Positions 2,671-6,098 of a stretch of DNA of 64,000 nucleotides are shown in pieces. The notes below the pieces were generated by a model. The model made no database searches. It had not been told where the DNA came from and was given only the letters and a program-made list of their open reading frames with translations. The position numbers and the translations under genes are program-made. Numbering within the stretch: the first letter of the stretch is position 1; every line of letters begins with the position of its first letter. The stretch is from Calditrichota bacterium (GTDB lineage Bacteria > Zhuqueibacterota > Zhuqueibacteria > Zhuqueibacterales > Geothermadaptataceae): NCBI GenBank assembly GCA_008501765.1, contig QQUE01000007.1, positions 856,186-920,185 of the forward strand, given 5' to 3'.

Positions 2671-2699
2671 TTGCATTTGATATTTTAAAACAATATAAT
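2671..2699 (+). promoter_or_regulatory. Sigma-70-type promoter of the leuA leader
   Basis: TTGCAT (2671-2676) and TATAAT (2694-2699) are separated by 17 bases, close to the ideal vegetative promoter. The predicted start is near 2706, about 35 bases before the leader-peptide ATG at 2742, leaving room for the attenuator in the transcript. Confidence 0.7.
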
Positions 2700-2741
2700 G
2701 GCTGCAATTATTTTAGCATGGAATTTTTCTGGACAAAAACG

Positions 2742-2825
2742 ATGATTCAATTCAATTTAAATATTTTAATTTTATCACTGTTAGAGCGACTGCTGCTCCT
2801 GGGAAACGTATATCATCCATGGTAG
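2742..2825 (+). CDS. leuL: Leucine operon leader peptide (LeuL-like)
   Basis: This 27-codon open frame starts at ATG 2742 and stops at TAG 2823-2825. Nine of its codons are leucine, including four in a row (CTG CTG CTC CTG, 2790-2801), ten codons before the stop. It sits between a good promoter (2671-2699) and a terminator hairpin (2859-2893) just ahead of leuA. That is the architecture of ribosome-mediated attenuation, as in enterobacterial leuL, which also has four consecutive leucine codons. The ribosome binding site is weak (GGA about 10 bases upstream). Role inferred: stalling at the leucine codons when charged tRNA-Leu is scarce allows read-through into leuA. Confidence 0.8.
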   Translation: MIQFNLNILILSLLERLLLLGNVYHPW

Positions 2826-2858
2826 ATTACTGAAATCAATTTAGACAACTTAAATAAC

Positions 2859-2893
2859 AAAGCCATGGAGATTAGCAATCGCCATGGCTTTTT
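2859..2893 (+). terminator. Intrinsic terminator/attenuator hairpin before leuA
   Basis: AAAGCCATGG (2859-2868) pairs perfectly with CCATGGCTTT (2882-2891), extended inside by GATT/AATC (2870-2873 with 2877-2880) around a three-base loop, and ends in a run of five T (2889-2893). It lies 34 bases after the leader-peptide stop and 63 bases before the leuA ATG. The core CCATGG also occurs at 2817-2822, the last codons of the leader ORF. An alternative anti-terminator pairing is therefore possible when that segment is not covered by a ribosome. Confidence 0.85.
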
Positions 2894-2955: not shown

Positions 2956-4641
2956 ATGGATGCCGAAAAAGTAAATAAGTACCGCCCTTTTCCACAGGTC
3001 GATTTGCCAGACAGGCAATGGCCAGGCAAACAAATTGAGCATGCGCCAATCTGGTGCAGTGTTGATCTGCGTGATGGGAATCAGGCATTGCAAACCCCGA
3101 TGGATCTGGAAAGAAAGCTCAAACTGTTTAAATTGCTGGTGGAAATCGGCTTCAAAGAAATCGAAGTTGGCTTTCCGTCTGCGTCTGCTGTGGAATTTGC
3201 TTTTGTTCGTGAGCTCATCGAACAAAATCTAATCCCGGATGACGTCACAATTCAGGTTTTAACACAAGCCCGTGAGCATGTAATTCGCAAAACATTTGCT
3301 GCCATTGAAGGGGCAAAAAATGTCATCGTACATCTTTACAATTCGACTTCAACCTTGCAGCGGGATGTTGTCTTCAAAGCCGACAAAGCCGAAATTACAG
3401 CGATCGCCGTTGCGGGTGCAAAGTTGATGCAGGAATTGAAAGAAAAATCGAACAATCCCGGCATACGGTTTCAATATTCTCCCGAAAGTTTCACCCGCAC
3501 TGAACTCGATTTTGCGCTCGACATCTGCCACAATGTTTTGGCTGTCTGGCAACCAACACCCGAAAATAAAGTTATCATCAATTTGCCAGCAACAGTGGAA
3601 TTGTGCTCGCCCAACATTCATGCAGATCAAATTGAATGGATGGGCCGCCATCTCAAAAACCGCGAAAATATAATCATCAGTTTGCACGCCCATAACGACC
3701 GCGGAACAGCGGTGGCAGCCACAGAATTGGCGCTGCTCGCTGGAGCTGACCGGGTTGAAGGCACTTTATTTGGCAATGGTGAACGCACCGGGAACGTGGA
3801 TATCGTAACCACAGCATTGAACCTGTTTTCGCAGGGAATCAACCCCGGTTTGGATTTTTCAGACATCAATTCAATCGTAAAAGTTTATGAATTTTGTACG
3901 CGCATGGGAGTGCACGAACGCCATCCCTACGCCGGAGCGTTGGTTTATACAGCTTTTTCAGGCTCGCATCAGGACGCCATCAACAAGGGCATGGCCGCAC
4001 AGGAAGCCTCCGATTCCCCGGATTGGGCTGTCCCCTATTTGCCCATCGATCCCCGCGATGTCGGCCGAAATTATGAGAAAATAATTCGTATTAATAGCCA
4101 GTCCGGCAAAGGCGGCGTTGCTTATATAATGGAGCAAGAATTTGGTCTCAAACTGCCAAAAGAAATGCAGCCTGACTTTGGGCGTATCATTCAGCAGGTC
4201 ACAGATAAAAAAGGCGAGGAACTCACACCGAAATCAATTCTCGCTATATTTAAAAAGGAATATCTTGAATTGAATGCACCCTATTATTTGCAGCACTGCT
4301 CCATCCACACGGACGCAGATGGTGACAATAAAAACGGCAAAGAAAAAACCTCGATAAACGCTGTGGTCCATTTACAAGGTGTGCAAACCTACATCGCTGG
4401 AAAAGGTAACGGCCCCATCGACGCTTTTGCCAACGGCCTGAAGGAACAACTTGATTTCGATTTCCGCATCGAATCTTACGACGAGCACGCTGTCGAGCAC
4501 GGCTCCGCTTCCCGTGCCGTAACTTATATCAGCCTGAAACACGAAGACAAAACTGTCTTCGGCGCCGGCCTGGATTCGAATATCAGTTTGGCTTCGTTTA
4601 AGGCCTTGCTGAGCGCATTAAACCGGTTGGAAAAGGTTTAA
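2956..4641 (+). CDS. leuA: 2-isopropylmalate synthase
   Basis: LeuA catalyses the first committed step of leucine synthesis, condensing acetyl-CoA with 2-oxoisovalerate. The 562-residue chain is of the long type: TIM-barrel catalytic domain with D-L-R-D-G-N-Q-A-L near the N terminus and the metal-binding H-A-H-N-D-R-G-T motif, then a linker and the C-terminal regulatory domain (about residues 430-562) that binds leucine in this family. ATG 2956 was chosen because AAAAGGAATC at 2941-2950 gives a well-placed ribosome binding site; a TTG at 2905 would add 17 residues but overlaps the terminator region. No other leucine gene is adjacent. Regulation is by the attenuator at 2671-2893. Confidence 0.96.
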   Translation: MDAEKVNKYRPFPQVDLPDRQWPGKQIEHAPIWCSVDLRDGNQALQTPMDLERKLKLFKLLVEIGFKEIEVGFPSASAVEFAFVRELIEQNLIPDDVTIQVLTQAREHVIRKTFAAIEGAKNVIVHLYNSTSTLQRDVVFKADKAEITAIAVAGAKLMQELKEKSNNPGIRFQYSPESFTRTELDFALDICHNVLAVWQPTPENKVIINLPATVELCSPNIHADQIEWMGRHLKNRENIIISLHAHNDRGTAVAATELALLAGADRVEGTLFGNGERTGNVDIVTTALNLFSQGINPGLDFSDINSIVKVYEFCTRMGVHERHPYAGALVYTAFSGSHQDAINKGMAAQEASDSPDWAVPYLPIDPRDVGRNYEKIIRINSQSGKGGVAYIMEQEFGLKLPKEMQPDFGRIIQQVTDKKGEELTPKSILAIFKKEYLELNAPYYLQHCSIHTDADGDNKNGKEKTSINAVVHLQGVQTYIAGKGNGPIDAFANGLKEQLDFDFRIESYDEHAVEHGSASRAVTYISLKHEDKTVFGAGLDSNISLASFKALLSALNRLEKV

Positions 4642-5349: not shown

Positions 5350-5985
5350 GGCCCACAAGGGGCCGGACTACACTCTGAGACCAAACCTTGTAGCACAGGC
5401 CCTTGTGGCCTGCCCGATACCGGAAGCCATTTCACGTGTTTCCGGTATAATCAGAGTTTGGATAAGCGGCCCACAAGGGGCCGGACTACACTCTGAGACC
5501 AAACCTTGTAGCCCAGGCCCTTGTGGCCTGCCCGATGCCGAAAGCCATTTCACCTATTTCCGGCATAATCAGAGTTTGGATAAGCGGCCCACAAGGGGCC
5601 GGACTACACTCTGAGACCAAACCTTGTAGCCCAGGCCCTTGTGGCCTTGCCCGTTGCCGGAAGCCATTTCACCTGTTTCCGGCATAATCAGAGTTTGGAT
5701 AAGCGGCCCACAAGGAGCCGGACTACTTAGACCAAACCTTGTAGCCTGCCCGATGCCGAAAGCCATTTCACCTATTTCCGGCATAATCAGAGTTTGGATA
5801 AGCGGCCCACAAGGGGCCGGACTACACTCTGAGACCAAACCTGGTAGCCCAGGCCCTTGTGGCCTTGCCCGTTGCCGGAAGCCATTTCACCTGTTTCCGG
5901 CATAATCAGAGTTTGGATAAGCGGCCCACAAGGAGCCGGACTACTTAGACCAAACCTTGTAGCACAAGCCCTTGTGGCCTGCCCG
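5350..5985. repeat. Tandem array of ~118-bp palindromic units
   Basis: Six units begin at about 5350, 5468, 5586, 5705, 5804 and 5923 (periods 118, 118, 119, 99 and 119), the last incomplete. Each unit has two palindromic parts: GGCCCACAAGGGGCC with its inverted partner AGGCCCTTGTGGCC, and a CCGGAA...TTCCGG pair flanking CATTTCACC. Copies differ at few positions. The 99-base unit has lost about 20 bases between GTAG and CCTGCCC. The units are not CRISPR-like, since no short repeat alternates with unique spacers. ORFs seen across the array are by-products of the repetition. The flank 5207-5349 holds no gene. Confidence 0.9.
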
Positions 5986-6098
5986 GTTCTAAACCGCACA
6001 GAGACCGTATCACCAACATCAGGTACGATCAGAATTTCCAACCCTCAACCTGAAACTTTCCACCATGCAAACCTTTTAACCTCCAAACGTTAATTCAC

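Follow-up and report, generated by a model that had tools for sequence, protein, structure and literature searches.

A predicted ribosome-mediated leucine attenuator ahead of a stand-alone leuA gene in an uncultured FCB-type genus

How might a leuA gene that stands apart from the rest of its pathway be adjusted to the leucine supply of the cell? The gene in question lies on the forward strand at positions 2956–4641 of the window (the whole 64,000-nucleotide stretch of Calditrichota DNA analysed here, to which all coordinates refer) and encodes a 561-residue 2-isopropylmalate synthase of the TIGR00970/PRK03739 type, with scores of 872 bits to NF002991 and 764.3 to TIGR00970, both above cut-off. 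The other branched-chain amino-acid genes form an ilvD-ilvB-ilvC-cimA-leuC-leuD-leuB cluster on another contig (C3), which includes citramalate synthase and no leuA; the original prediction, made from the sequence of the window, had already described leuA as standing alone. We propose, with a probability of about 0.9, that the region ahead of this gene is a ribosome-mediated (leader-peptide) transcription attenuator, which would tune leuA expression to the availability of charged tRNA-Leu. Promoter activity, leader translation, ribosome stalling, termination and a response to leucine are all events that we infer from the sequence. In the same window, positions 5368–6041 hold repeated sequence with similar ORFs on both strands, marked by GPQGAGL and SPAPCGPLIQT motifs; this is probably an array of intergenic repeats.

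The putative promoter (2671–2699, forward strand) consists of TTGCAT at 2671, a 17-nt spacer and TATAAT at 2694. Since the −35 hexamer matches the consensus at three of six positions only, its initial description as near-consensus was an overstatement, which nevertheless stands for the perfect −10 hexamer and for the spacing. This weak −35 notwithstanding, the promoter is conserved within the genus, as TTGC(A/T)T...TATAAT in L003 and L005. The same poor match explains why a generic scan missed it, and the terminator described below was missed because the terminator scan limited loops to 8 nt. The leader ORF (2742–2825, forward strand) has equivalents in L003 and L005 and comprises 27 codons encoding MIQFNLNILILSLLERLLLLGNVYHPW followed by a stop. 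It contains the nine leucine codons first reported, a number (at least nine in 26 codons) expected by chance with P ∼5e-4 at the local leucine frequency. Four of them are consecutive (CTG CTG CTC CTG, 2790–2801, forward strand) and would act as control codons; CTG and CTC are not rare, at ∼22% each in four genes of the window. A strong Shine-Dalgarno sequence is absent upstream of 2742. An alternative in-frame ATG at 2718 would give a 35-codon ORF; 2742 is the better start, since L003 has no ATG at the equivalent of 2718.

The motif CCATGG occurs at 2817, 2863 and 2882, each copy within a segment of the predicted switch on the forward strand. The first (2817–2822) belongs to segment 2, at the leader end (2810–2824), which provides the 5′ strand of the antiterminator and is supported by covariation. 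The second (2863–2868) belongs to segment 3 (2860–2872), at once the terminator 5′ arm and the antiterminator 3′ strand, and the third (2882–2887) to segment 4, the terminator 3′ arm. The two copies on which the original prediction was built are thus in place, as is its intrinsic terminator with a 10-bp stem ahead of leuA, complete with a U run. This terminator, AAAGCCATGG...CCATGGCTTTTT with the bases that follow (2859–2896), has a stem AAAGCCATGG/CCATGGCTTT of 10 bp plus four inner pairs, then the T run, and folds with about −17 to −18 kcal/mol. The antiterminator has seven or eight continuous pairs (TCCATGG/CCATGGA with a G-U style extension) plus ATC/GAT across a bulge, and is longer than the pairing first noticed. 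Besides, positions 2712–2722 form a possible segment 1 (protector), which could pair with segment 2 if the leader is untranslated. The transcript 5′ end and segment 2 can form such a pairing in each of the three genomes of the genus (p against shuffles 0.02 for the window, 0.013 for L003 and <0.0005 for L005), which would tentatively produce the classical four-segment arrangement. A genome-wide search for more CCATGG terminators gave no match, which is not informative because the pattern demanded an additional T that the copy in the window itself lacks.

Of the 82 genomes of the phylum, three contain the same LeuA, with 80–85% identity, and these belong to a single genus; the 80% relative, L005, is isolate Dive96_bin3.88. 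Promoter, leader and CCATGG terminator are kept in all three, while the rest of the region drifts. Their leader peptides (MIQFNLNILILSLLERLLLLGNVYHPW, MINLNLLFLLPYLAGRLLLLGDLRHPW and MVNLYLHILIISLLERLLLPGKVHIPW) share R-L-L-L-(L/P)-G followed by a P-W-stop end, which places CCATGG directly before the stop codon, and the first leucine codon of the run invariably lies 27 nt before this CCATGG. The terminator retains its 10-bp stem and U run (−17 to −19 kcal/mol), and the duplex between the leader 3′ end and the terminator 5′ arm reaches −15.3 kcal/mol in the window and −15.9 and −14.3 kcal/mol in its relatives, with respective z-scores of −3.7, −3.5 and −3.3 versus shuffles.

The comparison was extended to a wider set of 80 leuA loci from public genomes. 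A blind automated search requiring a leucine-dense ORF, a terminator and an antiterminator detected all three parts in 21 of 82 leuA upstream regions, versus none of 82 reverse complements and none of 410 first-order Markov shuffles. The layout seen in the window recurs upstream of leuA genes of its type in many Desulfobulbales and some Nitrospirota, where CCGTGG/CCACGG replaces CCATGG through compensatory changes. In most Desulfobulbales the leader is leucine-rich and has ...TVA... close to the end, the terminator reads GCCACGGT...ACCGTGGC, and the leader's ACCGTGGC is able to pair with the 5′ arm of this terminator, the part played by CCATGG in the window. Across 22 distinct segment triples (leader segment, terminator 5′ arm and 3′ arm), two-sided compensatory changes affect four pairs of the antiterminator and five of the terminator, and neither covariation score was reached by any of 500 shuffles. 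Sliding the partner destroys the pairing, and slid controls score far lower. The percentage of paired positions is inflated because leader segments were picked for best complementarity; the distance from leader segment to leader stop was not selected for and is near-constant, mostly 24–27 nt in the other phyla. By eye, the layout also fits two Omnitrophota loci (L029, with GAAGAG.AGGTG and CACC..CTCTTC, and the similar L028) and the chloroflexote Thermosporothrix (L030, GTCGCCCAC with GTGGGCGAC). The duplex test was failed by L025 (z=+0.5) and was not significant for L006, L010 and L044 (p 0.06–0.09), and a leader with terminator was not found upstream of leuA in L012, L024 and L034.

Two variants of the layout were observed in passing. 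In Thermosporothrix hazakensis (L030), a leucine-rich leader carries GTCGCCCAC, perfectly complementary to the 5′ arm of the following hairpin, and a second hairpin, GCCGTGG/CCACGGC, comes after the first. The Nitrospirota loci L023 and L026 possess the switch helices and a conserved CGACTTA (Arg-Leu), ∼24–27 nt upstream of the switch segment, with few leucine codons.

These comparisons bear on whether the hairpin could be an ordinary intergenic terminator for upstream transcription, the leucine-rich ORF being incidental. Intergenic terminators are common, and a run of four leucines occurs in five of the 1490 short ORFs of the 64-kb window. However, the upstream gene ends at 2208, ∼650 nt away and with a conserved promoter in between, and the joint retention of leader, run and hairpin in the genus, their recurrence before leuA in other phyla and absence in controls, and the covariation of both helices make such a coincidence very unlikely. 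The original prediction had proposed the alignment of orthologous upstream regions as a check on the leader, the leucine run and the stems; this alignment shows the parts kept in the genus and compensatory changes in both helices.

The locus combines the features of an attenuator, namely a leader rich in codons for the pathway product, a terminator, an antiterminator sharing the terminator 5′ arm, and an appropriate stall/stop geometry. Parts, conservation, geometry and covariation all argue for the classical ribosome-mediated attenuation initially put forward. A ribosome would translate the 27-codon leader behind RNA polymerase. When Leu-tRNA is ample, it would proceed to the stop at 2823 and cover segment 2, leaving segments 3 and 4 to form the terminator, and transcription would end at about 2892–2896. 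When Leu-tRNA is short, the ribosome would stall at 2790–2801 and segment 2, 15–27 nt downstream, would stay free to pair with segment 3 (2860–2872) before segment 4 is made, allowing the polymerase to read into leuA. The 5′-end pairing with segment 2 may tentatively represent the usual 1:2 protector, which would keep the terminator formed in the absence of leader translation. Piecewise folding is consistent with this scheme: with a stalled ribosome and the last arm unmade, the antiterminator comes out as the optimal structure (−11.8 to −18.0), whereas a ribosome that has reached the stop hides segment 2, and the terminator then folds (−17.2 to −20.7). For the full-length transcript, the equilibrium structure is in every case the terminator, which is more stable even with segment 2 free, and the switch must consequently be kinetic, as it is in other attenuators.

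Terminator/antiterminator switches before amino-acid genes are often T-boxes in Firmicutes, and the terminator here might likewise be under the control of a tRNA-binding T-box or of a metabolite riboswitch, with the short ORF left untranslated. Around leuA, no Rfam family reached its gathering score and no T-box or leucine family appeared even at E up to 10. Moreover, reading frame, leucine run and stop position are all conserved, as would be needed only in a leader that is translated, and control by such an RNA is barely credible. Rfam searches of the leader and its relatives also returned nothing relevant, with no match to Leu_leader (RF00512) or T-boxes, relaxed threshold included. A close classical counterpart of the proposed attenuator is the enterobacterial leu operon attenuator (leuL), with its short leader, consecutive leucine codons, intrinsic terminator and alternative helices. 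The window element has the same parts, but leuL (Rfam RF00512 Leu_leader) precedes leuABCD whereas the window element precedes a lone TIGR00970-type leuA and does not match RF00512.

As of 2010, leader-peptide systems were described as demonstrated only in Proteobacteria and Actinobacteria, with Firmicutes then added (PMC2965389). The statement accompanying the original prediction, that such attenuation is best known from the former two groups, undersells later work in Staphylococcus aureus (PMC5794164) and inference in Flavobacterium (PMC9723704). The S. aureus ilv-leu operon has an experimentally supported leucine-rich attenuator with leucine-dependent promoter activity (PMC5794164). It shares a leucine-rich leader and a poly-U terminator with the window element but precedes ilvD in a Firmicute, and its regulation is demonstrated whereas that of the window is predicted (PMC5794164). 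In Campylobacter jejuni and other Epsilonproteobacteria, LeuL is a 28-residue leader with five leucine codons before leuA, and in C. jejuni the RNA ends shortly after the leader stop (PMC3847290). That leader belongs to a leuABCD operon of a different phylum and uses rare leucine codons, in contrast to the common ones of the window (PMC3847290). In Flavobacterium psychrophilum, leader-peptide attenuation has been inferred ahead of amino-acid operons; this FCB member would share its superphylum with the genus if the FCB assignment holds (PMC9723704).

The actinobacterial LEU element also places a run of leucine codons in a leader before leuA, and is proposed to form a pseudoknot between this run and the leuA Shine-Dalgarno, with no classical terminator described (PMC1262725). 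Such a leucine-rich leader ahead of leuA in both cases could suggest that the window leader acts translationally rather than via termination. Yet in all three genomes of the genus the leader is separated from leuA by a U-tailed terminator, and it is this terminator, not the leuA start, that takes part in the alternative helix. The leucine run itself matches the leuA start region AAAGGAATC at only ∼4 bases, a complementarity that is weak by eye. Translational action of the LEU type is thus most unlikely. Also close to the window attenuator are the Desulfobulbales and Nitrospirota leaders (e.g. L007–L017, L023, L026, L031 and L032), which have the same gene type, part order and complementary leader segment, with a terminator 5′ arm GCC(A/G)(T/C)GG likewise present in the window; they differ in the distance from segment 2 to the leader stop (24–36 nt versus 7 nt in the window). 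The portions of the literature consulted contain no description of this leuA-type leader design in other phyla, and the Lopatovskaya 2010 survey (cited in PMC4833913) may hold a Desulfobulbales case. By its predicted mechanism, the window element resembles a classical leucine attenuator; it falls outside Rfam Leu_leader, T-boxes and the LEU element, and is a further example of a known device, not a new kind of switch.

Where did the gene and its switch come from? LeuA of the common type (TIGR00973) is above cut-off in 31 of 82 genomes of the phylum, and the TIGR00970 cut-off is passed by this genus only. In the order (15 genomes), the ilvD cut-off is likewise passed only by this genus. The restriction of this leuA type within the phylum and of ilvD within the order points to a probable horizontal acquisition of the gene, and perhaps of the switch along with it. 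The LeuA tree (quick maximum likelihood) also suggests that leuA was acquired horizontally, as the genus joins Auribacterota, Omnitrophota, Planctomycetota and the L024 MAG (SH-aLRT 96), separate from Desulfobulbales and Nitrospirota. A direct Desulfobulbales donor was considered and is not supported, the LeuA of the genus falling outside the Desulfobulbales clade in this short quick-search tree. One scenario, which we favour a little less than its negation, is that an old switch family accompanies TIGR00970-type leuA across phyla (Thermodesulfobacteriota, Nitrospirota and this FCB-type genus, possibly also Auribacterota, Omnitrophota and Chloroflexota), often keeping the GCC(A/G)(T/C)GG helix. 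This family would have travelled horizontally and given the genus, in an order otherwise without full ilvD, leucine synthesis together with a ready-made sensor. The FCB affiliation, originally given as probable, receives indirect support from 150 type-IX-secretion C-terminal (sorting) domains in the genome. MAGs of KSB1, Calditrichota and other FCB groups have been reported from a Southwest Indian Ridge black smoker (PMC9769843).

Two further observations concern ilvD. Among the other genomes of the order, matches are partial and below threshold in three relatives and absent from nine; the genomes suggest branched-chain amino-acid auxotrophy in much of the order. Upstream of the ilvD operon itself (G000 contig C3, L096:912–1139; matching stretch L101, G069), a conserved 75-codon leader ORF rich in Ile, Leu and Val ends in ...LIIGLIVNTTLISVVGIIISPVVLHIIGILLLSLIIISR and a stop; a long hairpin that lacks a U run comes next. 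Immediately after this stop, a segment pairs with the distal arm ATCGCTTCT, which has the ilvD start region as an alternative partner (9 bp, AGAAGCGAT, in G069; imperfectly in G000). This leader is possibly a translational rather than a transcriptional branched-chain amino-acid attenuator.

To conclude, our analysis yields a well-supported prediction of a leucine attenuator for an uncultured genus of FCB type, in a design that recurs upstream of the same kind of leuA in other phyla. What is less ordinary is its context, a leuA type confined to this genus within its phylum. Since attenuators of the leader type function without a regulatory protein, a new host could use them immediately, and the locus offers a concrete case for asking whether biosynthetic genes are transferred along with their RNA sensors.
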